This document shows positions 11,528 to 32,140 of a DNA stretch of 64,000 bases, piece after piece. Source of the DNA: Meghimatium bilineatum. Its lineage: Eukaryota; Mollusca; Gastropoda; Stylommatophora; Philomycidae. The position numbers and the translations under genes are program-made. The stretch covers positions 43,716,094 to 43,780,093 of the forward strand of contig CM067306.1 of assembly GCA_034231615.1 (NCBI GenBank), given 5' to 3'. Every line of letters begins with the position of its first letter. Position 1 is the first letter of the stretch. The notes under the pieces are model-generated. The model saw nothing but the letters and a program-made list of their open reading frames with translations. It searched no databases and had not been told where the DNA came from.

Positions 11528-11720
11528 GCTTGACAGCGTGTTGGGGAGTTTTGCGACATACGCCCGTCTCAAAGGACGTTACGACGATGACTGGATCGAC
11601 CGACTGAATCACCTCTACACCACAATTATCCTCATCATCTTTACCATCGTCGTCAGTACTAAACAGTACGTGGGCGAACCTATACATTGTTGGTGTCCCG
11701 CTCAGTTTGAGGAAAGCCAT
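11528..11720 (+). CDS. Innexin exon 1 of the recognised part (N-terminus, TM1, start of loop 1)
   Basis: 193 bases between acceptor TTCTCAG (ends 11527) and donor GTAAGT (starts 11721). After one leading base it encodes 64 residues: LDSVLGSFATYARLKGRYDD, a short DWIDRLNHLYTT stretch, the TM1 segment IILIIFTIVVS, then TKQYVGEPIHCWCPAQFEES and H. The motifs YVGEPIHCW and RLNHLYT are innexin hallmarks. The leading G leaves phase 1, so an upstream exon ending in AT would give Met-Leu-Asp-Ser. The frame also stays open upstream into the intron, but that stretch is not innexin-like and the acceptor is good. Confidence 0.93.
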
Positions 11721-14700
11721 GTAAGTACTTATGAACATGTCACAACATTTTGTCACCGTCAGTTGTATCAGATGTTCATCACCGTATCTAATTTAAATAT
11801 CACTCTAATCATTTATCTTGGCCTGGAAATCGACAATACAAGAACTCCTTTGTTCTGTAAGCATTCTTATATACAGTCCACGCCTGGTTTTCTCTCTTCT
11901 TGTCACAATCCTTTAATCTTGACACCTTGCATAATATCCTCTTATCTCAATGCTTCAATCTTGGTAGATTGTACAATCTCTTATCTCAATCTTTCAGTCT
12001 TGACAGCGTGTATAGGGCCTAATCGTTTCTTGTCTCAATCCTTCAATATTGACAGTTTTCATATTCTCTTAAATCACGACATGTCAGGGAAAGAGGAAGA
12101 ACATGTTACACACAATGCTGTCGTATTTCTCGCGGAGTTTCTCATTCTTTCTGCATACAATTCATTTAGTTTAATCTGTATAATGATTCGTTACTTTTCA
12201 TCTTTTTATTATATCTGTAAGAATTATGCCCACTTATACTCTTGTATCCTTTTGATATTATGTAAACAAAAAGACAACACAAGTGATTATTATTTCTAAG
12301 AAATACACACCGTCAAGATGCAGTATAAAAATCAACGATGCACACTTAAATCAAGTGCATAAAGTCAAATATCTTGGCACCATTTTAACATCAGATGACC
12401 GGTGCTCTAATGAGATAAAGAGCAAGATAGCACAAGCCAAATCTGCTGATTTTCCTAAATCGAGACAAACTCTATACACTGGAGTACATATACGAATCTT
12501 AGTACTATTATATTGAAGCAATTCATGTGTATGGATGTGAAACATGGACTGTAAACAGATCGGTTCAAGGTGACGGTGAGCTGGAGGTAACTGAGATGTG
12601 GGTTTTGAGAAGAATGATGGAAATTCCATTGGCAGCCAAGAAAATGAATGTAGATATCCTCAGAGATGCTGGTTCTAAATAGAAAAATTATAACACAAAT
12701 TAGAATTAAACAGTCATGATTTTTAGGGAACGTGATGATAGTAGCAATTCTTGACCATTTAGAAGCAACTGGAAAGATCAATGGGAGAAGAGAACAGAGG
12801 ATTTCAAACAGAGAAATGTCTGAATGGGTTGTCACTGCCACACAAAAATATGTCCTCAACGGAACTTATTAGCAACACAAGAGACTGGTTAGTTAGTTAG
12901 TCGTTGAATCTAAGTTGCAAATATTCACCTTTTACTGTATCATCACATATATTCATCTTTCCCTGTCTTGTCACATTTATTCATTTATCACAGTCTTTTC
13001 GCATTCATTCATCTTATATAGGTTGTAGTCGTTTTTTTTGGTCTGTTATCACATATTTCACATTACTCATTCACCTTTCACTGTTGTGTTAATTCATCTC
13101 TCACTGTCTCATGACATGTAATAATTTGTCACTTGTCTCATCGCATACAATTATTAATAGTTGGTTTCATTTCTAGGACAAGTACTTTAATCAATCATGT
13201 CTCCAATATAAATAGTATATTGATATGATGTCTGATACGTGCTAAAACATGTACACAAACATTCATAATCTTACATTCAGACATGTACATTTCCCCTGAT
13301 TTCAGTTCATGCATCACATCATTATATCGACTTTCCTCACTACATCCTTCATGTATCCAGGTGGCTTACACTAACAACGTGTGCTGGGTTTCCAATACAT
13401 ATTATGTTCACTTCAACGAACACCCACCACAAAATTGGATCCTGCCGTACCATTCTGAGATCCAGTACTATCAATGGATTCCCATGATACTCTTGTTCCA
13501 AGCGTTACTGTTCAAGGTACCAGCTAACAGTGTAACACCATAGCGGTCTTCAGTTTGTTCAAATGTTATCTGTGAACAGTGACGTTTTGTTAAATATGTT
13601 CAAAACGGGAGTTGGTGCCAGCAAATTCTATACCAACTTCTCAATAGTGTTCAAAGTATACAGCATTCGCCGCATATATTGCAGTTCAACGCAAGTCTTT
13701 TGTATACACACCCTATATATATTCACGCAACAATTGTATTTTTCTTTTATTGATATTGAATTTGTTTATTATGTCAACCGAATCTCGCCCATACAATGCT
13801 TTCATCTCAACCCCATATTGTTTCAATCCTTCATAACGACCCCAGCCTTTATTAAAAAAGAGACATTTAATTTTTCAGACATTCTCTCTTTTATAATGAT
13901 ACATTTCCTTTTAAAGACACAATTTCTCACATGACATTTCTCACAACAACATCTCTTCCTAAATGATAAATAATATCTCTTATCATTTTCACGTGAAATT
14001 ACCTGTTTAGATGAAATATGTATCTGTTATTTATAATGCCTAAAAGATAGTAAGAGTGCCGCCACATTGGAGACATTAGCACACAAATAGTATATCCGCA
14101 TTCCCCAGAATGACGCAACAGCACGTCTGAAACTGCTGTTATCATCGCCAGCTTTAGACAGTTAGTATTAGTGCACGTAGATATCAGCCCTATCATCCGG
14201 ATGGCTAGTTTTTCAGTGGACATGAGTTTGCTTTGTAGCTTACAAAATCCTCCTAGACTTCCTACATCGGCAAGAAATATAACAATTGTTAACTCGCGCC
14301 AAAAAGCACCAAAAGAGATTGTACACAATACAGAGGTACATCACTTCTAAGCCACACTTGAAATTTTCTCAACGGAATTCTAGAAAGAAGATTCGGAGTA
14401 TTCATCACACCACAGCTTAACAACACTCAAATGTGATTCCGTAAGAACAAGAGCTGTACAGAAATCATTTTTACATTCAGATAACTGGCAGAAAAAACAA
14501 CTGCAAACAACCAAGAATTGTATATCGCATTTGTCGATCAAAAAAGCCTTCGACAGAGTAGACAGACAACAACGAAGAAAAATGCTATCAAAATATAAGG
14601 TTTAACAATACCTAATCAACTTGCGCTGTAGTAAATTATACATGTTGTCAATGTGTAGCTAGAACGAGTATCAGACTTTCAGACAAAATTTCACATACAC

Positions 14701-17700: not shown

Positions 17701-20700
17701 CCATGGCTTTCACTCCATGGGGTTTGTTCTGGTACAGACCTTACGGGGCTGTCAACTTCAGGTAGGTCTGTAAGTTGTCTACGGAGTCGTTTAGCTTGAT
17801 GGATAAAGCTGCTCCTTTTCAGTCGCCCCATTGCTAGATTTTGGAATCTTTCCTTCATTGGATGACTTGGCATACACTGGAACTTTTCTGCCTGAATTAG
17901 TACTTTTGTGTCTCTGTGTTCGCCAAGTGTTTGCATTCTTCCCATTTTCTGCATCTCTGCTATGGGTGTTGATTTCATTGCTCCCAACATTATTCTAAGT
18001 GCCTGGTTTTGCACTTTATCTAGATCTTGTAATGTGGTGTTTGATGCAGGACACCACGCAGCTGAACCATATTCCAGATGTGGTCTTATGCCTTGCTGGT
18101 AAACTTTACTAAATATATTTGCACTCGCTCCCCATGTGGTTCCACTTAGTTTTCTCAGGATATCTAACTTCCTCCTGGCTTTTGTTGTTGCTTTGTTTAT
18201 GTGCTGCTTCCATGTCTGCTTATCATCAAAAGTAACTCCGAGGTATGTGGGTTGTTTGTCTTCTTTCAAGAGCTCTCCATCTATCTTGATATGACCAGCT
18301 TTTTGTTTTGGTGAGAGAGTAAAGAGTGTAGTGCTGCACTTATCTGTGTTAATGCTGACGCACCATCTATTTGCCCATAAGGTTAGGGCATCGATAGCTC
18401 TTTGTATTTGTTTAGTGGCCACTGTTGCATGTTCTTCCATGCACCAGATCACCTGGTCGTCAGCATATATTGCCACTTTGATTCCGTGTGGTAGTTCAGC
18501 AACTAGGTCATTGATGTAAACCAAGAGAAGTGTGGGTGACAGGACTCCCCCTTGGGGGACTCCGTGACGCAGTAGAACTTTCTTGCTCCTGCGACCATCT
18601 AATTGTACCCTGGCTCTTCTATTATGCAGGTATGCTTTTACCCATTTGTACATTCTTGAGCTAACCCTGCAATTTCGCAATTTCTTTAGGAGCCCTTCTT
18701 TCCAGACCTTATCAAATGCTTTCCTGAGGTCTATCCATGCTGCTAGTACCAGTTTCTTTTCTTGGAAGGCATCCTCAATCTCTTGGGAGAGGTAGGTTGC
18801 CTGATCTTCAGTAGAGTAGCACTGTCTGAAACCTGCTTGCTGTGATACCAGAAGGTTTTCACTTTCAAGGTACCACTGCATCCTAAGATTGATAATGCGC
18901 TTCATTGTTTTACATAGACAGCTTGTGAGGCTGATGGGCCTGTAGTTGGAGACTGTGTTGCCATCTTTTCCTGATTTGAGGAGTGGTATCATTATTGCTT
19001 CTCTCCACGCCTGTGGTACATTACCTGTGGACCAGCTTGTGCATAACACTGCTGAAGCCAGGACACTCATTGACAATAACACTGCTGAAGCCAGGACACT
19101 CATTGACTATAACACTGCTGAAGCCAGGACACTCATTGACAATAACACTGCTTAAGCCAGGACACTCATTGACAACAACACTGCAGAAAGTGTTAATAAT
19201 CTACACTGCATTACTGTGAGCATGAGATTGCTGTAAAGATCGGACCAGCTCGTACACAACTGGAACTGTCATCCTCTACACTGATGGATTTATTGAAACT
19301 GGAATCGGAGCACCTATGAACGTGTGGAATGATAATAACCAGAAATCATAACTATTATTAATTTCACTAATCAAATCGTTCCTACACATCAACAGTTACA
19401 TTTCTGTGGTTAGATTGAGTAAACTGTACTTCCTGCGGTGAAGTACGCTCTTTTCAACCGTGGACGTTAGTGCAATTTGGTTATATCAGAGTTATAAAAA
19501 CATAGAAATAAAGGTGGTCGTGAATTTTTGTAATCCAGTCAGTCTTCTTTCCAAATTGTATAAGGTGTTTCAAGAAGTGACACCTGTCACCGGCTGCAAC
19601 CCATATACCATTTGATGAATTATTTCCAAATTGTATAAGGTGTTTCAAGAAGTGACACCTGTCAACAGGTGTCACTTAAATTTCATGAATCACTAGAACA
19701 TTGATCAAGAAATGAACTAGCAATATGAACGTTTACCAACACATCAATATCATTACAATTGTCATCATACATCACTTACCTTCTGATCATCCTTCATCTT
19801 CTGTAGGTTGACTATACCAATAACGTCTGTTGGGTCTCCAACACACATTACGTTCCTTTTGACGCTCATGTACCGCGTGCACCCGAGAAACCCCTACATG
19901 CAGAGGTCGAGTATTATCAATGGGTTCCCATGATTCTCTTGTTCCAGGCACTTCTCTTCAAGGTAATCATCTACACTTTTATGACAAGTCTGATTATAAA
20001 TATTGGCACTAGATGTCGTACACGCTGTCATGTTAGATACTTCTGTGTGATCAAATCATGTGTCATCAAGCAACTGGTTACTCATATATGTTCATGTTTA
20101 TTCCGCGAGTTAATATAACAATAATCTATTTTGTGTGTATATGATTTCACAGATTGAAGTAACAGATGAAGAGTCATAATACCGGATATGCTCAAACAAA
20201 ATACGTCAGCTCACACTGCAAAGAAATTAACCGAGTTACTACAATAGTGTCTTTCTTCAAATAAATATGCATCAACATTGATTTCCTGAAATAAATAAAC
20301 ATGTCACTGCTTTACTCATTACTTTTTGTTCAACACAGTTTTCCTCAAATAATGATACATCTAAGTTTTGCTTTTCTCAAAAAATGATACATCATAAGTT
20401 GCTTTCCTCAAATAATAATACATCTATATTGCTTGCCTCATATAATGATACATCTAAGTTATTTTCTTAAAAATTAATGAATCTAACTATATCTCTATTC
20501 GCTAAACGATTTGTTGCCTTTCAGCGTCAGGGGTAGAAGAGTTATCTGGAGATGGCCCTAGCGTGTGTTGAGTATATTGTGGAGTTTGGCGCCTCTTTTA
20601 TTTCGGTGGTCCATCGTTTTCGTGGTCGGCGTCTAGGTCTGCCTTCACTATATCTGTATAGCATAGCTTGCTGTGGTATGCTGCCTGATGATAATGACGT

Positions 20701-23700: not shown

Positions 23701-26700
23701 CGTCGAACAGCACAGGCCAAAGCAGCATTCCAGAAGTTGAGGAACATCTTGTAAAATAATTGTAATCAATATAAGTAAGAAAGTACATACTCAAATGTTA
23801 TATAGAGCCCATACTGCTATTTGGTAGTGAAACATGGACAATTTACAATATTGCAAGAAAATATCTGGAGGCCATAGAGATGTGGTTTTATAGAAGAATG
23901 TTGAAAATATCATGGACAGCTAAAAAGAGTAATGCTATAATTTTACAACTGGTCAACTCAAATGGAGAACTTACTATCTGTATTAGAAGACAAAATCGCA
24001 GTTTCTGGCCCAGAAACTGATATTTCGTCTTCTAATACAGATAGTAAGTTCTCCATTTGAGTTGACCAGTTGTACAATTATAGCATAACTCTTTTTAGCT
24101 ATCCATTATATTTTTTGTTAAGTCTTGGTACATCAAACCCCATAACGTGAAAATAACGTGATTTGGATGGCTTGAAAGCCTGGCATGATTCAGAATCATC
24201 AGAAAATATATTTAAATGTATAACAAACAGAGAACTGTGGAGAGACATGATCACCTACGCTGGAAGACATGGTACCAAGGAATGAATGATCTTAGTTGTT
24301 CTATACTTCTAGGAAAAACAGCTTTCGATTGTGTATTTTAAGTCTGTAAACAGTATCAAACATGGTGAATGACAATGATCTGAGAATATCTCCGGTGTTA
24401 CTTTACATTTATTTTACATGTTTTTAATTATTCCGTGCAATTCGTTGGTCGTGTTAGCAAGTGACACCCGAGTGACACATAGCATAGTACAATTGAAAAA
24501 CCAGCAATAAATAAGAACATCACGTAGTAACGTTGATTCTCCTTTGTTTTAATTCTTCCGTTAGGTCTTATTTGGCGATTAATCGCGCTTCAGCAATAAG
24601 AAAAATTGACATCTAAATAAATTATAAATAAGCCAACACTGAGAGTTATAAATTGATACATCTATTATTTATTAATATATGGCTCATAAACATGAACAAT
24701 ACATAAACAACTAGAAGACATAATTGATGCCTTTGAGATGTTATATATGATATAGAAGAATATGGAAAACGTCGTGGAAAGAGAAGAAAACAAACAAAGA
24801 GGTTTTAACAACACTTCATATGAAGAAAGAATTATTAAATGAAATAAAGATCAATCAAATAAAGTATTTTTAAAATATTAAAATACTTGGATGAATACAC
24901 TACGTGAGTGTAAAGTTTTAGGGGAGGCGATCAAGAGGTAGGCTGAGATACAAGTAAGAGATCACGAGATTGCAGCCTAACAGAGTGTACCACCAAGACA
25001 TGGGATGTTGGTGGTCTGCTGTAGCCAATCTTCATTGCGTAGATGGTACTTAGCGATGATTATCGTTGAATCCGTCCATAGAAAACCTTCTAGATGTTAT
25101 CCACAACGCATTGGCTAACTCATTAACGCAATATTAGTCACTAAATATCAGTTCCCTAAACCACAGAAAAAAACAACACAGTTCCATGTTGTCATATCCA
25201 CGTCAAACTGTAATACATAGGGAATTTTTAGTTCTGAGAAATAATCATCATACATTGTTTCAAAGCACATGATTGATTTGAAGCAAGCGTCTCAATGAAC
25301 GAGGGAATCGTTATTAAAAGGTCAGATCCTCAGGAGTCAATGAAAGTTGTTGATATATACGAAATCGCACGCGAATCGTTTCGGCATCAAGGACAGATAT
25401 CTTTGAAAACAAGAATGATCCTTCGATTATCTTTCTGTAATGTTTATATTAAATAACTAAATGTGTGTGCACTATTTAAGCTGTCTAATCATGGGACAGT
25501 ATGCTGAGTGTACCAAAAATGTATAGATTTCTGCAAATGATTAGTGATCTTCGTCTTCTTCTTTCGTTCACTTGAAACATGTCTATATCTGTAATTCTGT
25601 CTCCTTAATAAAACTCACTGTCTTTTGTAGTTCATACAGTGTCCCATAGAGTTTTGATTCCAGTGTTGTTTCCTCTGGCCAATATGTCTGCACCAGCGTT
25701 TCATGCTCAGAACACTCTTGAAGTATATGTTTGGCACTCTGTGCTGCCTGTCCACATGTACACATGGCGATTAGTGATCGAAAATTGATCGACCCCAGAC
25801 GATCGTGAACAAAAATTGTTTTCATTAAGCATTCTTATTCTTCTTCTTCCGTTCACTTGAAACATGTCTATATCTGTAAATCTGTCTCCTTAGTAAAATT
25901 CACTGTCTTTTGTAGTTCATACTTACGAACGTAGCACATTGAGCTTTGATTACAGTGTTGTTTCCTCTGGTCAATATGTCTGCCTCAACGTTTTTAATTA
26001 CACATAAGCACAGTAAAAATGGGTCAGGTTTCAGCTATACAACATATGAAGATTAGCAGATTAGTGGGATTATCTTACAAAATCTGGAAGATATGATGTA
26101 CAAAATCAAACATATATATCTTTTTTTTTACGGAAATCGCACATGAAAACATTAAGACTATACTAACAGTTATTTCTACTGATACCCCAATTTCAATTTT
26201 AGTTTGCTGTTTTACACAATTTTAACACAAAAACCTTAGCCAATAAACACAACATGTAAGCTGTGTAAGAAAATGTAACTTATTTTGGTAAGGATTAAGA
26301 GGTGATTTTTTTGGGTCAAGTCTTGGTACATCTAACCCCTTTCCTAAGCGTACTTCCCTTTAGTAGAAGGTAACTCGTGTGCCATGAGCTCACCGAGCTC
26401 ACGGATGAAACTTACAAAGTTGCGTGTTGTGATTGTACTCTTGGTTTGCGGTATGCTGGTTTCTTTAGAGTGCTGGTCTCTATAAAGTCTATCTACTAAG
26501 ACTTTTGAACGATTTATTTATGTGTTACTGTTGGCTTCAATGCTATTCTAAACTAACATAGCCAGTTACTCTTAAATTTAAAATGATTTTCTATTAATAG
26601 GTATATTTTACTTTCATTCTAGGTGCCGTGTATATTATGGCGAATCTTGACAGCGTCTGCTGGTGTGAATTTGGACAAGATAGTGACTCTAGCAGCGGAA

Positions 26701-27477
26701 ACAGCGTATGTGGCCCCAGACGATCGAGACAGAACCATCAAACACATAGTGCGGTATATGGACAGGTGGATAGAAAACGCCAGGGAGTACCGTTCTGGCT
26801 GTTTTATCCGATTACGGCAACAAATATCCAAATATTGCTGTATCGTTTGGGGAAAACGTTACGGCAACTACCTGGTCACACTCTACATGTTCATCAAACT
26901 ACTTTACCTAGCCAATGCTATTGGTCAACTTTTTATACTAAATGAATTTTTGGGTACTAAGTTTAACGTGTACGGATTTGAGGTTATGGACCATTTGGCT
27001 CGCCGTGAGAGCTGGGCAGAAAGTCCCCGATTCCCAAGAATCACGCATTGTTTCTTTAAAATCCGTCAAATGACCAACGTGCATGACTACACTGTCCAAT
27101 GTGTATTGCCAATCAATCTTTTTAACGAAAAGATATTCATTTTCATCTGGTTCTGGTTGGTCTTTGTAGCCAGCCTCAGCGCCTTCAACTTCCTCATCTG
27201 GCTTTACACAATGATCTTTAGGCAGCATCGCCTCCGCTACCTCAAGAAATTTCTTCGAATCAACGACTGCTACAAATCAGAGTTAGACAAAAAGATGGCC
27301 GTGAAATTTTGCGAGCAGTACCTACGACAGGACGGTATCTTTGTACTCCGACTGGTTGGTAAGAACGCAAATGATGTTCTCGTGTCGGAGCTGATCCTGC
27401 AGCTGTGGAATCATTACAGAAACAAGCCACTCTTCAGGCACGCAAACCAAATTAGCGATGACAACAGTAATGTCTGA
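11528..27477 (+). CDS. Innexin (gap-junction/hemichannel protein), whole gene model
   Basis: Innexins form gap junctions and hemichannels in the plasma membrane of non-vertebrate animals: four membrane segments, two extracellular loops with paired Cys, cytoplasmic ends. The model joins 11528-11720, then 13361-13516 or 19807-19962, then 26623-27477, giving about 400 residues, the usual innexin length. Seen: RLNHLYTTIILIIFTIVVST with TM1, KQYVGEPIHCWCP (loop 1), YYQW.PMILLFQALLF (TM2), FPRITHCFFKIR and YTVQCVLPINLFNEKIF (loop 2 Cys), then TM4. All borders are GT-AG and in phase. The initiator Met is not in the first recognised exon. Its first base, G, could complete an AT-G start from an upstream exon. 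Introns are full of decayed retrotransposons. Paralogue assignment is not attempted. Confidence 0.93.
11721..13360 (+). other. Innexin intron (1640 bases)
   Basis: Begins GTAAGT and ends in a pyrimidine-rich CTTCATGTATCCAG. It contains a region of repeated TCTTATCTCAATC/CTTCAATCTTGACA words at 11880-12060 (a decayed short tandem repeat), a family-B1 retrotransposon fragment (12283-12885), and CATTCATCTTTCACTGTC-like degenerate repeats at 12920-13110. Confidence 0.85.
12283..12885 (+). mobile_element. RTE-like retrotransposon 3' fragment (family B1)
   Basis: Reads IKINDAHLNQVHKVKYLGTI, LTSDDRCSNEIKSKIAQAKS, then in other frames YGCETWTVN and EMWVLRRMMEIPLAAKKMN. This is the YLGT...QAKSAF...YGCETWT...MW.LRRM series of RTE-like ORF2 C-termini. 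It has frameshifts and an early stop, and ends just before a (GTTA)n run at 12890. Sisters: 23640-24300 and 50815-51525. Confidence 0.8.
13361..13516 (+). CDS. Innexin alternative exon 2A (loop 1 / TM2)
   Basis: 156 bases, exactly 52 codons, phase 0 at both ends, between acceptor ATGTATCCAG and donor GTACCA. It encodes VAYTNNVCWVSNTYYVHFNE, HPPQNWILPYHSEIQ and YYQWIPMILLFQALLFK. The CWV Cys is the second loop-1 Cys region, and YYQW-P is the innexin signature at the start of TM2. It has the same length and phase as 19807-19962 and differs mainly in the loop 1 centre. It has Ala where exon 2B has the more usual Asp (VDYTN). Splicing both exons would keep frame but duplicate loop 1 and TM2, so one per transcript is expected. 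The GTACCA donor is weaker than the GTAATC of 2B. Confidence 0.9.
14365..15660 (+). mobile_element. Decayed family-A-like retrotransposon (RT core to 3' end)
   Basis: Collinear remnants on the + strand: FVDQKKAFDRVDRQQRRKML (RT domain A) near 14530, HSGVRQGCVL (domain B) near 14698, SDDQAYD followed by TEEQLQQHINRL (a damaged FADDQ domain C) near 14823, and a C-terminal GRPRKWW-like KDRPRKWWIENIKIALNKHE at 15497. Many stops. The domain order fixes the orientation; RTE-like is an inference from the FADDQ...TEEQLQ resemblance to the copy at 20.5 kb. Confidence 0.8.
15702..16037 (+). mobile_element. Family-A retrotransposon 3' end
   Basis: Reads ILGVTIRDRIRNENIRRLTN, MPILDYIRRQKIKWFSHASR and ISSDSQMALL, then a stop. 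The terminal block is still recognisable (CGAGAACTCTTCTACCCCTC, then ACGCTTCAAAGCG). Adjacent to, but probably separate from, the preceding fragment, since the C-terminal part is represented in both. Confidence 0.8.
16235..16620 (+). mobile_element. Older RNase H-bearing non-LTR element, 5' remnant
   Basis: Reads INTLDKIQNDDIRIIFRCTK and DTPSVEKRYLLDT, matching the LDKVQNQALRII.GA.KSTP block at the end of RT in Jockey/I-like elements. After the minisatellite and the nested insertion, 19215-19340 reads TGTVILYTDGFIETGIGA, the start of an RNase H domain (YTDGS motif). I infer one element on the + strand, split by the intervening repeat and insertion. Confidence 0.65.
16622..16779. repeat. 33-bp minisatellite, left part
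   Basis: About five copies of a 33-bp unit (CATTGACAATAACACTGCTG followed by AAGCCAGGACACT). The array continues at 19043-19185 on the far side of the Jockey/I-like insertion, so it was one array before the insertion. The unit is open in several frames, which produces artefactual ORFs. Confidence 0.95.
16769..16779. repeat. Target-site duplication (left), 11 bp
   Basis: ATAACACTGCT here and at 19043-19053, directly bordering the (TTC)n tail and the truncated 5' end of the inserted element. Part of the minisatellite unit, so chance identity through the repeat is possible. The second insertion at 25550 also has an 11-bp duplication in non-repeat DNA. Confidence 0.75.
16866..17573 (-). CDS. RNase H domain of the Jockey/I-like element
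   Basis: An intact frame of 235 codons. RNase H degrades RNA in RNA-DNA hybrids during retrotransposition. Seen: VYTNGSTQNAVRNGGAGVYI (the usual YTDGS is YTNGS here, so the first catalytic Asp is replaced by Asn), NYDAEIQAI (catalytic Glu), FLTDARSVLQAL (catalytic Asp), WIPSHCGIPGNEKADKLAKE (the H..I.GNE.AD motif), then the C-terminal zinc-knuckle-like CICGQAAQSAKHILQEC. It is in the same reading frame as the RT upstream, separated only by one TGA codon at 17576-17574 that could derive from CGA by C-to-T change. Probably one ORF originally. Confidence 0.9.
   Translation of the reverse strand: MYTNGSTQNAVRNGGAGVYIEYRHKPRDTIRTPTGKFCNNYDAEIQAISVATKKLLNSNSGLQPVVFLTDARSVLQALQSGKLTELQKLRSELSYQYRVTMQWIPSHCGIPGNEKADKLAKEGAAEDQPDIPITYHQKKQMIKSIRKPQTPTQDDYHIMNRSEQVIFLRLRTGHNRLRSHMYTKFKIGNTVMCICGQAAQSAKHILQECSEHDTLRQTYLARGNNTGIKALWDTV
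17574..19042 (-). CDS. Reverse transcriptase of the Jockey/I-like element (N-terminally truncated)
   Basis: Open from the truncation point to a TGA at 17576-17574. RT motifs in order: REAIMIPLLKSGKD and NYRPISLTSCLCKTMKRI, LVLAAWIDLRKAFDKVW (domain A Asp), HGVPQGGVLSPTLLLVYIND (domain B), VAIYADDQVIW (catalytic YADD), then the LGVTFDD and LDKVQNQALRIMLGA blocks after the palm. The first residues of the longer open frame (to 19103) are encoded by the flanking 33-bp repeat and are not part of the protein. It copies the element's RNA at a nicked target; the endonuclease is absent, so this copy cannot move by itself. Confidence 0.92.
19043..19185. repeat. 33-bp minisatellite, right part, with target-site duplication
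   Basis: About four further copies of the 33-bp unit. Its first 11 bases (19043-19053) repeat 16769-16779. Confidence 0.95.
19186..19345 (+). mobile_element. Older element, RNase H start
   Basis: Reads RTSSYTTGTVILYTDGFIET and GIGA, a YTDGS-type start of RNase H, then decays. Companion of the RT remnant at 16235. Confidence 0.55.
19548..19678. repeat. Direct repeat of ~40 bp ending in a perfect palindrome
   Basis: TCCAAATTGTATAAGGTGTT followed by TCAAGAAGTGACACCTGTCA occurs twice, about 75 bases apart. The second copy ends in a perfect hairpin: arms 19650-19662 and 19665-19677 (AAGTGACACCTGT and its complement) with a 2-base loop. It lies about 130 bases upstream of exon 2B. Confidence 0.85.
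19807..19962 (+). CDS. Innexin alternative exon 2B (loop 1 / TM2)
   Basis: 156 bases, exactly 52 codons, phase 0 at both ends, between acceptor CATCTTCTGTAG and donor GTAATC. It encodes VDYTNNVCWVSNTHYVPFDA, HVPRAPEKPLHAEVE and YYQWVPMILLFQALLFK. About 60-65% of residues equal those of exon 2A. Identity is complete at YTNNVCWVSNT and PMILLFQALLFK and low in the loop centre. The VDYTN start and YYQWVP are the commoner innexin forms, so this may be the ancestral version. Its position 6.3 kb after exon 2A, with the same length and phase, indicates exon duplication. Confidence 0.92.
20490..21515 (-). mobile_element. Family-A RTE-like retrotransposon, RT core to 3' end
   Basis: On the minus strand 21434-21168 reads SLSELLFADDQVLVESSEEQ (RT domain C), then DRLHQTCQTLNMNINIEKTE. 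Toward 20500 the post-RT region decays and ends at the shared CTCTTCTACCCCTGACGCTG block and the TTTAGCGAATAGA end. A ~75-base insert at about 20687-20765 interrupts it and recurs at 22576-22650. 5'-truncated. Confidence 0.82.
23640..24300 (+). mobile_element. RTE-like retrotransposon 3' fragment (family B1) rearranged by a fold-back
   Basis: Reads GTIITSDGH, CYIEPILLFGSETWTIYNIA and EAIEMWFYRRMLKISWTAKK before it enters the left arm of an inverted repeat (23914-24104). The tail (RDMITYAGRHGTK) appears near 24240-24275. Stops throughout. Confidence 0.8.
23914..24104. repeat. Fold-back: 83-bp inverted repeat with a self-complementary loop
   Basis: Arms 23914-23996 and 24022-24104 match in reverse complement over 83 bases with about four mismatches. 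The 25-base centre contains a further perfect 10-bp palindrome around one base (CAGTTTCTGG-C-CCAGAAACTG minus one C). The whole 191 bases can therefore fold into one long hairpin. The left arm is retrotransposon ORF2 sequence in its normal orientation. Confidence 0.93.
24640..25065 (+). mobile_element. RTE-like retrotransposon 3' fragment (family B2)
   Basis: Nucleotide similarity to 6650-7066: ATATGGCTCATAAACATG, AAACAACTAGAAGACATAAT, GTGGAAAGAGAAGAAAACAA, ending TTAGCGATGATTATC. Truncated and full of stops. Confidence 0.75.
25550..25768 (-). mobile_element. Jockey/I-like 3' end, 219 bp, with 11-bp target-site duplication
   Basis: Over 90% identical by eye to the 3' end of the 16.8-19.0-kb element: the last RNase H residues (CTCGQAAQSAKHILQECSEH), 3' UTR and (GAA)n-type tail. 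It is flanked by GATTAGTGATC at 25539-25549 and 25769-25779. A dead-on-arrival 5'-truncated insertion. Confidence 0.92.
25839..25991 (-). mobile_element. Second Jockey/I-like 3' end, more decayed
   Basis: The same 3' UTR and tail (TTCTTCTTCCGTTCACTTGA, then AACATGTCTATATCTG) with a small internal replacement near 25922-25938. No clear target-site duplication. Confidence 0.85.
26623..27477 (+). CDS. Innexin last exon (TM2 end, cytoplasmic loop, TM3, loop 2, TM4, C-tail)
   Basis: 285 codons including TGA at 27475-27477, after acceptor TTTCATTCTAG. It starts VPCILWRILTASAGVNLDKI, which continues TM2 from either exon 2. Then the cytoplasmic loop (RTIKHIVRYMDRWIENAREY), TM3 (YLVTLYMFIKLLYLANAIGQ), loop 2 with Cys in RITHCFFKIR and YTVQCVLPINLFNEKIFIFI, TM4 (WFWLVFVASLSAFNFLIW), and a tail with FVLRLVGKNANDVLVSELI and QLWNHYRNKP. 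The frame is intact, with no stop or shift. The stop is in TGA-CTAG context and is followed by an 89-codon in-frame extension. Confidence 0.95.
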   Translation: MPCILWRILTASAGVNLDKIVTLAAETAYVAPDDRDRTIKHIVRYMDRWIENAREYRSGCFIRLRQQISKYCCIVWGKRYGNYLVTLYMFIKLLYLANAIGQLFILNEFLGTKFNVYGFEVMDHLARRESWAESPRFPRITHCFFKIRQMTNVHDYTVQCVLPINLFNEKIFIFIWFWLVFVASLSAFNFLIWLYTMIFRQHRLRYLKKFLRINDCYKSELDKKMAVKFCEQYLRQDGIFVLRLVGKNANDVLVSELILQLWNHYRNKPLFRHANQISDDNSNV

Positions 27478-27747
27478 CTAGCCGTTCAAAAGTGGAAGAC
27501 TGTTCAATCGATGAAGAGTTGGTTAGGAATTAAATCCGTCAATCTAGCGACCCCTGAGGATAACCAAGACACTCGTCACCATAACGGGCACCATAATCAT
27601 AACCACCGCCATCGCGACTACAGTCACCCAGATGTCGGAAGTAATTGTAACCAAGGTGTCGAGCTGGTCGGATTTAACACTCTACCGCGACAAAACAGAT
27701 ATTTAGATACGACGTCACACGCAATGGAGAGTCAGGAGAAGAATTAG
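27478..27747 (+). CDS. Candidate stop-readthrough extension of the innexin C-terminus
   Basis: Directly after the innexin TGA, the same frame stays open for 89 codons to TAG at 27745-27747. The stop and next bases are TGA-CTA-G, the sequence known to promote programmed readthrough of UGA in animal mRNAs. The extension reads LAVQKWKTVQSMKSWLGIKS, VNLATPEDNQDT, a His/Asn-rich stretch RHHNGHHNHNHRHRDY, and GVELVGFNTLPRQNRYLD near the end. Its GC content and codon use resemble the exon more than the AT-rich downstream DNA. The extension alone could also start at ATG 27511. Alternatives: a coding tail lost by a recent nonsense change, or a chance frame. Confidence 0.6.
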   Translation, partial: LAVQKWKTVQSMKSWLGIKSVNLATPEDNQDTRHHNGHHNHNHRHRDYSHPDVGSNCNQGVELVGFNTLPRQNRYLDTTSHAMESQEKN

Positions 27748-28040
27748 GTTCAAACACAGAAATTGCTTACGTGTAAGATAGACTGAAATAACACATTTGT
27801 AAGTTATGCCATTACTGATGTTTTGTTTGATGCATGTCCAGGTTGTACTCCAACAATTGGCCAGGTCCATAATGTTTTAGCTTACACATGTATAAACTTG
27901 TTTGGTAGTAGATTGGTAACCTGGTTCATAAACTTAAATAGGTAGCATTATGATATATCATTGGTTCTGTTTTGTAGTAAAGTATGGTGTATGGTTGTGA
28001 GAGCTCGGAGCTGGGAACTTGCTACAGACGTGAAAAAACT
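27748..28040 (+). other. Downstream of the innexin; probable 3' UTR start
   Basis: AT-rich with no coding evidence. No AATAAA is obvious in this stretch. Confidence 0.4.
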
Positions 28041-28044
28041 AATA

Positions 28045-28375
28045 TAGACCTTTGAATACAAGTATTATATACGAGTACATGTCTTGGAATACAAGTGTTA
28101 CATTTGAATAAGTAAACAAAAATGAGGGTAGAGAGGAGTGAGTAGCGCATAGTTAGTATACTTGCTGCGAAGCAAGTGCTATGTACGAATACAAGTGTTA
28201 TGTACGAATACAAGTGTTATGTATGAATACAAGTGTTATGTATGAATACAAGTGTTATGTATGAATACATGTGTTATGTATGAATACAAGTGTTATGTAC
28301 GAATACAAGTGTTATGTACGAATACAAGTGTTATGTACGAGTCCATATCTTCGAATACTTGTGTTATATACGAAT
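28045..28375. repeat. 19-bp tandem repeat
   Basis: The unit GAATACAAGTGTTATGTAC (19 bp) runs in register from about 28190 to 28340, with more diverged copies at both ends and an insert at 28105-28175. Confidence 0.93.
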
Positions 28376-28505
28376 AGACATTGCATAGACAAAATTAGCG
28401 CAATCCCTTCTTCTTCTTTCCTTCCTCTTTTACCCTATACGGGTGTCAAGGGAGATACAATGTTCTTGTTCACGCTTTTCTGGCAGCTTCAGATAATGTT
28501 ATTTG

Positions 28506-28586
28506 GTGTTCCTGTAATGTCTCTTTGATGGTGTCGATCCAGCGTACTCTTGGATCGATAACATCAAAGATACATTACACGAACAC
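28506..28586. repeat. Fold-back hairpin 1 (36-bp arms)
   Basis: Arms 28506-28541 and 28551-28586 are reverse complements with about four mismatches and a 9-base loop (GCGTACTCT). Confidence 0.93.
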
Positions 28587-28594
28587 TACAATGT

Positions 28595-28649
28595 GCTTTA
28601 CTGCATCTATTGTGAGCAGTAAAGAAATACACAATAGATGTAGTAAAGC
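28595..28649. repeat. Fold-back hairpin 2 (20-bp arms)
   Basis: Arms 28595-28614 and 28630-28649 (GCTTTACTGCATCTATTGTG and its complement, one mismatch). The right arm is the start of the family-A fragment that follows; the left arm is the same element sequence in the opposite orientation. Confidence 0.9.
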
Positions 28650-29132
28650 ATACTAAGCCCTAGGACAAATGACACCAATCTTCAGAAACAAAAATGTAGA
28701 TTTAAACACCAAAATAACACTATTCAAAACGATTACTATGCCTACGCTGTGCTACCAATGCCAAACATGGACAACGACAGAACAAGACAAACGTAAACTA
28801 CCGACAGCTGAAATGACATGCTTACACAGAATCACCCTAGAAATATCGCTAGGAGAAAAAGTGAGAAATGAGAACATTAGACAAAGAACCGGTATCGCCC
28901 CAATCTTGGAATATATTAAGAGCTAACAGATCAAATGGTTTGCACACATCAGCAGACAGCATACCACAGCAAGCTATGCTACACAGAAACAGTGCAGGCA
29001 GACCTAGAGGCCGACCTCAAAAACGATGGACAACCGAAATAAAAGCGTACACGAGGACCATCTCCATAGAACTCTTCTACCATTGACACTGAAAGTCAAT
29101 AAAGGATTTCGCGAATAGATAGATAGATAGAC
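28621..29132 (+). mobile_element. Family-A RTE-like retrotransposon 3' end with (TAGA)n tail
   Basis: Frames from 28669 read MTPIFRNKNVDLNTKITLFK, PTLCYQCQTWTTTEQDKRKL, EMTCLHRITLEISLGEKVRN, then RTGIAPILEYIKS and RPRGRPQKRWTTEIKAYTRT. The element ends CGAATAGATAGATAGATAGA (from about 29111). One stop (28924-28926) and a shift break the ORF. It is among the better-preserved family-A 3' ends. Confidence 0.88.
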
Positions 29133-29134
29133 TT

Positions 29135-29395
29135 CTAAAACCTCGATGGAGGAATGCGAGTAAATAGTTTCAATGAAGTACTTCTGTCACCTCGATGGAG
29201 GAATATGAGTAGATATTTTCAATGAAGTACTTCTGTCACCTCGATGGAGGAATATGAGTAGATATTTTCAATGAAGTACTTCTGTCACCTCGATGGAGGA
29301 ATATGAGTAGATATTTTCAATGACGTACTTCTGTCACCTCGATGGAGGAATGCGAGTAAATAGTTTCAATGAAGTACTTCCACTACCTCGATAGA
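29135..29395. repeat. 50-bp tandem repeat, about 5 copies
   Basis: The unit starts TCAATGAAGTACTTCTGTCA, followed by CCTCGATGGAGGAATATGAG and TAGATATTTT (50 bp). The outer copies are more diverged. It starts within 5 bases of the family-A tail. Confidence 0.95.
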
Positions 29396-29399
29396 TAAC

Positions 29400-31015
29400 A
29401 ATTGTCATGCTTATAGATTATCATACAACAATATACAGTAACTAAATAGTATAGTGATTAAAATTAGACTAAATAACGCACTGATCAATAATGTTATTAA
29501 ATGGTATGTGATTGCACGCATTGAAAATAACAAACGTTCGTGTGATTGTTACTGGTGAATCAGATCTGGCCACGGATAAAACGAAAGTATCACAAAATAA
29601 ACGATTCATGAGTACACAAATTCCTCAGTCAGGAACCAAGTTTCATGAATTATTACATGCCATTATCAGTAGGTCATGTCATTATTAGTATTTCATGTTC
29701 GGGCCGCAGTTACGACTTTATGTGAAGTGAAGTGAGGGAAATACCAAAGACGTAACTGCCTAATTGTACGTATCTACGGAATACTCAGTCACGTGACTGC
29801 GTTTGTAGAGACCATCATTATGAGCACAGAATAGTCTGGCGGGGATAGTTACCGTGATTACTTCAGTGCAAACTCTGCATGCAGTCTATGTAGGAATGAG
29901 GGTTCGTGTGGCTCTCGGTACTTTTAAGTCGCTTAGTACTTTTTAGAGAATTCACAAAACTAGAAAAAATATAAAACTGAATCATTTCTCGAGAAAGATT
30001 TCCAACATTAGATATGCATACAAGTAGTTTAACAGATACATTGAGATATTTCTGTCTTGATATTAGTATTTTTAAAGTTGCAACCGGACTACTGGAGTTA
30101 TGAGTTATGATGATGCCAAAACGCTGCATTCTAGTGGCATTTAGCTTTTCCAAAAATTGTTTGTACCATAATATTGAAATAACCGCTGCTATCACATATT
30201 TTGTTGCTGAACTGGATATTAATGAGTACTCATGATTGACATGTAGTGCACTGAGCTGTTGATTTGTTTTCTGCTCCAGTTTATTATTCAAGTGTACTGG
30301 TCAGTTTGGCTGATGTGAAATTACAATGTGCACGTGATCTTCAGCTCACAAAATAGCAAATCGCAAGCTATTGCATACAAATTATAAACCACGACGTTAA
30401 ACAATGATAAATAGGAAATCATTATGTAAAATTTTTGAAGATGTGCGTGCAATATCTACTACAGTGTTTATGCTTTATATCTAGGACAGCGCATACGTAT
30501 GAGTTCTGGGACCCATTATAAATTTGTAGTTCACTCAGTTGTCATATCTGGTTTCTATTTCGTAAGTTACCCCTCGTAGATAAATAAAATAAAGGAAGCT
30601 CTAAGAACTCAAGTATAGTCATGCATTTCTATATTCCAGCTGCGTCTGTCGAGACACACTTACTGATTCAGATTTACAATTGTTTGAAAAGGTATTGATT
30701 GCTTTGAAGCCATGCAGTTATGAAGATTGTATTGTCAAAAGATCGTCAATATAGAAACATCGTAAATAGTTACAAACTTTGGACTGGATATCTGCATTAG
30801 AAAATTTGGTATAGGTTTTTGAGATAATTCTATACACAGTACAGAATCACTCTTTCGTAAGAGCATTCTTTTTAAAATATCGAATAACCCTGAGATTTAG
30901 ATGTGTTACGAAAGATAACTGTGGAGAAATCTACCTCCACCACTTTATCAAACAGTGCGTAAGAAACGATCGTGTCATAGATAATTATATCGATAATTAT
31001 ATGATGATGATAAAA
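29400..31015. other. No gene seen
   Basis: AT-rich sequence with an antisense frame of 142 codons (30291-29863) that has no features I recognise and poor codon structure. An imperfect inverted pair around GCAGTTACGAC/GACGTAACTGC occurs near 29706-29760. Confidence 0.45.
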
Positions 31016-31334
31016 ACACAAATGTATACTGTTCACAAAAAAGAAACGCAACTTTGTTGGAGTTACTTTTATAAAAGATATTCGCTGATTGTACATCATT
31101 CAATCTATCATTTAACTTCTCGTGGTTACCTGAATTGCACCTATCTCATGATTCGTGAGGTCATGAAAGAAGTCATGGTGAAAACAACATTTTTGACAAT
31201 AACTCATGACAGGATCATGAGAATCCCGTGAAACTTGCTGAACACAAAACGCAGACCATATTATTGAATGCCTATCAAATATTGGCTGTCCTGAAATAAA
31301 TTCAGTTGAAAATTAAACGCGCAAGTAGCGCCCA

Positions 31335-32140
31335 TCTCACTACAGAACAGCGATGCATCATCATTGGATGCTTGCAGACTTGACACTCACATAGTGGCAA
31401 TTTAATGGGGTTCGAAACTCCATTAATCTTCTTTGGACGCGATTTCAACAAACTGGATCAGTGGAAGACCAGGTCACAACTCCTGCCAAAGACCGCTTCA
31501 TACAGCAGCGTCATCTTAGGAAAAGATTTGCAACTGCGCCCTCCATAATCCAGTCAATGCAAGCAGCTTGTCGAATTTCAGATCAAACGGTCACGAACTG
31601 GCTGCACGACGCAGGTCTTTGGGTTGAAGACCCTACAGATGTCCTGCTCTTAAGGACCAATATCACCACAACCGACTTCAATGAGCGAACCAGAATCGTC
31701 AATAGACCGTTGGGAATGGCTGGAAACTGGTTTGATTTAGTAGTAAATCATATTTTTGAGCGACAATAATGCCGAATGATATGTCGCTGAAATTGTTCGT
31801 CCTTGCTTTCTTTCATTTTTGGCTACACGAGAGTCGATTTTTCAGTAGGATAACACTCGACCTCATGTGGTACAACTCACTACACAGTTTCTCACTAACA
31901 ACAAAGTCTGTGTCCATTCCGTGGCCAGCTATGTAATCAGACATGAACGTCATAGAACACGCATGGGATGAACTCGACAGACGACTCTGCCAGAGAGACG
32001 TGGCTCCAGCCAATCCGACAGTTGTTTGCACAGCGGGAAGCGTGGGCATGCATCCCACAACAACATATTATCCAACGGCTAATCGGATCCATGTCACGGA
32101 GATGTCGTTCTTTGATAGAGGCCAGAGGCAGCCATAGACA
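31335..32140 (+). pseudogene. Tc1/mariner-like transposase relic
   Basis: Tc1/mariner transposases cut and paste their element through a DDE catalytic triad. Remnants in order: LTTEQRCIIIGCL near 31340, then 31461-31769 with TTPAKDRFIQQRHLRKRF and ISDQTVTNWLHDAGL (second helix-turn-helix region). A deletion near 31770 removes the first Asp. DNTRPHVVQLTTQFLTNN near 31850 keeps the second catalytic Asp context, and MNVIEHAWDELDRRLCQRDV at 31943 keeps the Glu. Frames change at least twice. A possible left terminus (AAAAAAGAAACGCAACTTTG) is at about 31037-31056. I could not find its matching right inverted repeat. Confidence 0.85.

Follow-up and report, generated by a model that had tools for sequence, protein, structure and literature searches.

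The stretch analysed here (the window) comprises 64,000 nucleotides of the genome of the gastropod Meghimatium bilineatum (GCA_034231615.1, contig CM067306.1, positions 43,716,094 to 43,780,093 of the forward strand; part of contig C9 of the 1.6-Gb assembly G000). It contains an innexin gene whose UGA stop codon is followed by CUAG, in a frame that stays open for 89 further codons. Programmed UGA-CUAG stop-codon readthrough is very probably the best explanation for this arrangement. Set against a sister gene of this genome and against other molluscs, the sequence shows that UGA-CUAG is common to two sister genes with nearly saturated silent sites, that the extension is constrained, and that the canonical protein end is conserved. 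On this evidence it is best regarded as a real, selected readthrough extension, clearest in the sister gene and partly eroded in the window's own copy, that joins the UGA-CUAG class.

The last coding exon of the innexin (26623..27477, including the UGA; this and all features below lie on the plus strand) encodes a canonical C-terminus ending in ISDDNSNV. It matches PF00876 with an E value of 2.2e-62 (211.6 bits against a gathering score of 25), and the protein is 91% identical to that of Babylonia and 89% to that of Haliotis. The final NSNV (27463..27474) ends in S-N-V, which fits a class I PDZ ligand. The exon closes with GTC-TGA-CTA-GCC, placing TGA at 27475-27477 within a TGA-CTAG context (27475..27481). 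The extension runs from 27478 to 27744 with a coding signature over codons 1-76 (27478-27705), and a TAG closes it at 27745..27747. Both the stop context and the 89 open codons, on which a first-pass annotation had built its proposal of readthrough, were confirmed in sequence and position. An open frame of this length appears in 0.6% of 20,000 shuffles of its own bases and in 0.05% of 20,000 draws with the composition of the DNA after the extension. GC content is 46% in the extension and 36% in the next 300 nt. The other innexin loci read in the genome all end in TAA or TAG (6/6), with TGA-CTAG in none (0/6).

The sister gene, L005, is a second innexin on contig C8 (C8:38371353-38375168) and has a 104-codon in-frame extension past its own TGA-CTAG (positions 2374-2380 of L005). 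Its stop region reads AGTAACGTC-TGA-CTAGCCGTT, and GTC-TGA-CTAGCCGTTCAAAA is identical in the two genes, which share LAVQK from the first codon after the stop. The last-exon proteins are 95% identical, with the residue kept in 271 of 284 codons; third positions differ in 129 of the 284 despite this identity, which makes the two genes old duplicates. Two further innexins whose tails are nearly identical, L003 and L004, likewise lie on C8 and C9 and suggest a chromosome or genome duplication. Comparison with L005 is the kind of check that the first-pass annotation had proposed, and it favoured readthrough: TGA-CTAG is the same, no sense codon replaces the stop, indels up to 27707 are all in frame, and substitution is codon-like. 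Within the extension, a His/Asn-rich low-complexity stretch (RHHNGHHNHNHRHRDY; 27574..27621) carries a 12-nt indel between the sister genes, and the block VELxxFxTxPRQNxxx (27658..27705) is conserved. Since the His-rich part differs between the sisters in both length and sequence, the earlier suggestion that it senses metal or pH finds no support.

Selection on the extension was tested mainly on a nucleotide alignment of the window and L005 that is blind to reading frame. As far as 27707, the first, second and third codon positions mismatch at 23/77, 21/77 and 45/76 sites (P=4e-5), and the two indels measure 12 and 3 nt. The full 89 codons have 30, 29 and 52 mismatches of 89 each (P=4e-4) and one more indel, of 1 nt. 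Residues are kept in 35 of 76 aligned codons, a value that 5000 random placements of the substitutions (mean 25.2) reached at a frequency of 0.0002. The simulated partners held a mean of 3.3 stops and were free of them in 2.6% of cases (P 0.026); the real partner has none. By pairwise codon likelihood, the ratio of non-synonymous to synonymous rates (omega, or dN/dS) is 0.109 over the 76 codons and differs from 1 at P=1.1e-7. In the remaining two frames it is 1.39 and 1.78, and 7/76 and 14/76 codons there contain a stop in at least one sequence. Constraint starts near the stop, as the first 30 extension codons show when taken alone (omega 0.256, P=0.008). Past the extension, mismatches are 23, 25 and 18 of 44, 43 and 43, 8 of 32 codons hold stops and omega reaches 1.98; with such a ratio and no codon-position bias, the coding signal is absent there. 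The innexin core has an omega of 0.013, and its silent sites are near saturation (synonymous divergence, dS, 1.1-2.8 by three methods). These comparisons show that purifying selection has acted on the extension frame as protein since the sister genes diverged.

Proteins of other animals place the stop further back in time. Among the 16 closest proteins (P0002-P0017), 14, from gastropods and bivalves, end in DDNSNV; because these orthologous proteins end at the same residue, the stop is older than the sister genes. P0016, from Mya, ends in DTIV. The remaining protein, P0008, continues as NSNV-W-LTAHK...ETEV for 48 residues past the W, and P0122 continues as NSNV-W-LAVVK...ETAV for 72. In P0039 and P0125, from other innexin branches, a W likewise stands directly after what looks like the usual C-terminus. 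Gene callers that decode TGA as Trp would place a W precisely at the stop, and TGG is also possible there; the W-LAVVK and W-LTAHK records are compatible with TGA in other animals. A sense codon in orthologues, named at the outset as grounds for abandoning readthrough, is not seen in 14 of the 16, though the W of P0008 may reflect one. LAVxK is common to the snail genes and P0122 when the sequences are anchored at the stop (P=1.5e-4 and 2e-4 over 5 positions; 0.004 and 0.0008 over 16). A protein search with the extension alone (alignment A1) gave 6 candidates, none at E<=10, and a search for relatives with A4 in genome and viral contigs gave 22 and 183 pattern matches, none of them confirmed. 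Homology between the P0008 and P0122 extensions is not claimed (global P=0.001, local 0.53, C-terminus-anchored 0.005-0.03). The His-rich extension has a curious counterpart at the other end of two orthologues, P0003 (Babylonia; HHVHHGHGHGHGHGG) and P0017 (Pomacea; HHRHDNHNY), whose N-termini are His-rich.

The genome also holds decayed copies of the gene, which were read from 30 loci among the 105 matches listed, so that their number is a lower bound. At least 22 copies in the fetched loci reach the extension; TGA is present in 22/22 and CTAG in 20/22, and the extensions contain stops in 15/22, have a 20-nt gap in 6/22 and are broken off in 1/22. This listing omits L006, L009 and L010 (the window itself and the duplicate of L005), and L002, L007, L017 and L034 match outside the extension only. 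The copies are dispersed over C1, C7, C8, C9, C15, C16, C22, C23, C24 and C25 (among L011-L038) and are 92-95% identical to the window. Those fetched with flanks share intron sequence too, and a core gap of 2 nt close to residue 371 of P0003 is common to many; the copies look as if amplified from one broken copy. Pooled mismatches to the window at positions 1, 2 and 3, counted with L005 omitted, are 77, 98 and 140 in the extension and 303, 225 and 382 in the core, and gave no neutral test because shared ancestry makes the copies non-independent.

Several observations weigh against the readthrough interpretation or narrow its reach. Relative to L005, the window slips out of frame by one base between 27708 and 27720. 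Reading on in the frame that starts at 27720 (27720..27776) gives RNGESGEELGSNTEIAYV up to a stop, resembling the L005 end GGISGPEMGSDRDLSVV and its stop, and this frame is itself constrained (18 codons, omega 0.084, P=0.023). Given this 1-nt shift, the window residues around SHAMESQEKN are a frameshift product and the last ~18 codons are lost; L005 keeps the long form. The consensus of the decayed copies has the window's frame at 27708-27776, so the shift is older than they are. Two descriptions in the first-pass annotation need revision on this account: the "distinct end" is partly the frameshift product; and the DNA just after the TAG is not all plain 3' untranslated region (UTR), since it includes the frame resembling the L005 end. 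Measured against the decayed-copy consensus (22 copies kept; those below 90% identity, L005 and its duplicate left out), the window extension has 4 changed codons, all non-synonymous (4/4) and none silent. In the core, the changes fall at third positions only (2 sites, with 2 more unassignable). The window's own extension may thus be relaxing now, on the strength of few changes, and L005 is the better example.

Other points against it come from the estimates and the wider comparison. Two other estimators put the dN/dS of the extension at about 0.18 (LWL85) and 0.33 (YN00), and NG86 fails; with silent sites near saturation, the extension omega is imprecise. CTAG as DNA is observed within this one genome only, in the two sister genes and the decayed copies. 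The P0008 context is not CUAG, at best CUA-A, because its extension starts with LT, and this extension is not significantly similar to those of the snail genes (local P 0.58 and 0.14; stop-anchored P 0.13-0.51). Aligned locally with the snail extensions, P0122 shows no significant similarity (P 0.43 and 0.13); a global alignment gives weak values (0.042 and 0.006). No stable RNA stem was found downstream of the stop (z 0.16 and -0.79). This absence fits the mammalian UGA-CUAG class, for which 12 nt downstream appear sufficient according to the part of PMC4132726 available.

Other explanations have been weighed against this evidence. A minor splice form, removing the UGA as an intron or exitron, would allow the extension to be translated with no need for readthrough; the CTAG after TGA could give an AG acceptor, and GTAATG lies just upstream of the stop. 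An intron between these two (the nearest GT partner, by eye) would span only 15 nt, no pyrimidine tract is visible by eye before CTAG, and sister identity begins with LAVQK at the first post-stop codon, within 30 codons that are constrained. LAVVK also follows W directly in P0122, and the seven NCBI-annotated proteins among the 16 closest end in NSNV (six) or DTIV (one), which makes splicing unlikely. Equally to be considered is an ancestral coding extension cut off by a later mutation to UGA and now decaying as 3' UTR. Such decay would suit the frameshifted distal part of the window and its uniformly non-synonymous recent changes, but it is quite improbable for a stop that predates the sister genes, with close gastropod and bivalve proteins ending at the same residue (14 of the 16). 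It also sits badly with constraint lasting since the sisters diverged, at a core dS of 1.1-2.8, and with the lack of stops in either extension.

The UGA might instead be recoded in another way. It is the selenocysteine codon, and A-to-I editing could turn UGA into UGG (Trp); some molluscs edit RNA heavily, and the W in P0008 and P0122 fits editing or TGG as well as it fits a gene call with TGA as W. A search for selenocysteine insertion sequences (SECIS) found no match at E<=1 in window positions 26000-32000 or in L005, leaving no sign of a selenoprotein. The A of the UGA is preceded by G, and an A after G is a poor ADAR site; the W in P0039 and P0125 is as expected if gene callers applied table 4 to ordinary TGA stops. 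Recoding of either kind is very unlikely. Least credible of all is a chance open frame in the 3' UTR beside a chance CTAG: a frame of 89 codons arises in 0.6% of base shuffles and a given 4-mer about once in 256, yet frame-specific purifying selection between the sisters (P=1.1e-7), missing in the other frames and downstream, speaks strongly against it. Independent initiation of the extension was also rejected, since L005 has Val where the window gene has Met, at codon 12.

Programmed readthrough at the UGA-CUAG would work as follows; that ribosomes actually read through, at what rate and with what consequences, we infer from the sequence comparisons. The majority of ribosomes would stop at UGA and release an innexin ending in ...DDNSNV. 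A minority would decode UGA by a near-cognate tRNA, owing to the downstream CUAG, and so add 89 residues in the window gene or 104 in the sister gene. The short form would expose S-N-V as a class I PDZ ligand, while the long form would bury SNV behind a basic segment, a His/Asn-rich linker and the VELxxFxTxPRQN block. Most probably, readthrough would thereby exchange one C-terminal ligand for another, and channels with both forms could differ in anchoring or sorting, as with AQP4 and AQP4ex.

The extension ends bear on this proposal. A class I PDZ ligand follows the rule [ST]-x-[VIL] at the C-terminus; the canonical SNV fits it, as do the predicted extension ends SVV (L005), TEV (P0008) and TAV (P0122). 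The window end EKN fails the rule, so that three of the four extensions supply a new ligand. It is possible, though we rate it below an even chance, that readthrough controls a PDZ ligand switch between SNV and a TxV or SxV tail, predating the gastropod-bivalve split and independent of AQP4 with the same signal. An AlphaFold model has a mean pLDDT of 63.3, with a helix at 282-300 across the stop at about 54-65 and residues 304-374 below 50. The basic segment is predicted as a helix with low confidence, and at that confidence no fold is claimed for the extension. Innexin-6 of C. elegans (5h1q) is a solved innexin that matches residues 42-263 of the last-exon product; the match ends before the UGA, and phmmer found no PDB sequence covering the extension.

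The closest known parallel is AQP4 with its extended form AQP4ex (AQP4x). The AQP4 extension is 29 residues long, against 89-104 here. Like the innexin, AQP4 is a membrane channel with UGA-CUAG, a PDZ-type end before the stop and a C-terminal extension: in excerpts of the sources it ends in S-S-V before UGA-CUAG (PMC4132726), and a guide RNA reads TCTTCCGTATGACTAGAGG (PMC6444679). Its extended form controls anchoring with alpha-syntrophin (excerpts of PMC6444679 and PMC10701521). Since the long AQP4 form binds syntrophin better (PMC10701521, in part), the direction of any innexin effect is not transferable from AQP4. AQP4 differs in channel family and phylum, and in that its readthrough is shown by experiment, whereas the innexin case is based on sequence. 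According to PMC4132726, efficient readthrough at UGA depends in four mammalian genes on the CUAG behind it; OPRL1, OPRK1 and MAPK10 also have UGA then CUAG with a conserved extension frame, but encode unrelated proteins, with readthrough measured by reporters.

Readthrough candidates of Drosophila and Anopheles, from insects rather than a mollusc, are similarly defined by a coding signature past a conserved stop, and conserved regions in many of the longer extensions are separated by low-complexity sequence of variable length (PMC4528330). The same paper suggests that, among animals, readthrough may be abundant in insects and crustaceans alone. Neither innexin nor inx occurs in the main texts of PMC5100048, PMC3840789 and PMC4528330, supplementary gene lists aside, and the passages of PMC5009743 on oyster, mollusc and readthrough describe no such case. 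Open-licence literature, covered by titles and the starts of abstracts, yielded no report of readthrough in an innexin or a mollusc, nor did the matches listed for CUAG, PhyloCSF-readthrough and innexin-PDZ literature. The statement that no such innexin had been described thus holds for the literature searched: UGA-CUAG readthrough is itself known, and the innexin and the mollusc represent an unreported gene family and phylum.

Further features accompany the gene. A coding exon (LDSVLGSFATY...CWCPAQFEESH) at 11528..11720 was located by tblastn of the exon peptide, with AG/GT borders by eye; no exon further towards the N-terminus was located. Two alternative exons follow, 2a (VAYTNNVCWVSNTYYVHF...FQALLFK) at 13361..13516 and 2b (VDYTNNVCWVSNTHYVPF...FQALLFK) at 19807..19962. 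They have the same phase, the same place in the innexin (the first extracellular loop), peptides 69% identical and good splice borders; they look mutually exclusive and could change docking specificity. In the 20 kb fetched around the sister gene on C8, only one counterpart was found (L040 744-899). Tandem repeats adjoin the gene at 29131-29395 (unit ~49 nt) and at about 28190-28350 (~19 nt, by eye), and next to some of the decayed copies (L044, L046) these repeats have expanded greatly.

The case combines strong frame-specific selection, a gap-junction channel, the stop signal of AQP4 and a similar C-terminal ligand. If the interpretation is true, it would point to UGA-CUAG, placed directly after a PDZ-type end, as a recurring means of setting the anchored share of a membrane channel.

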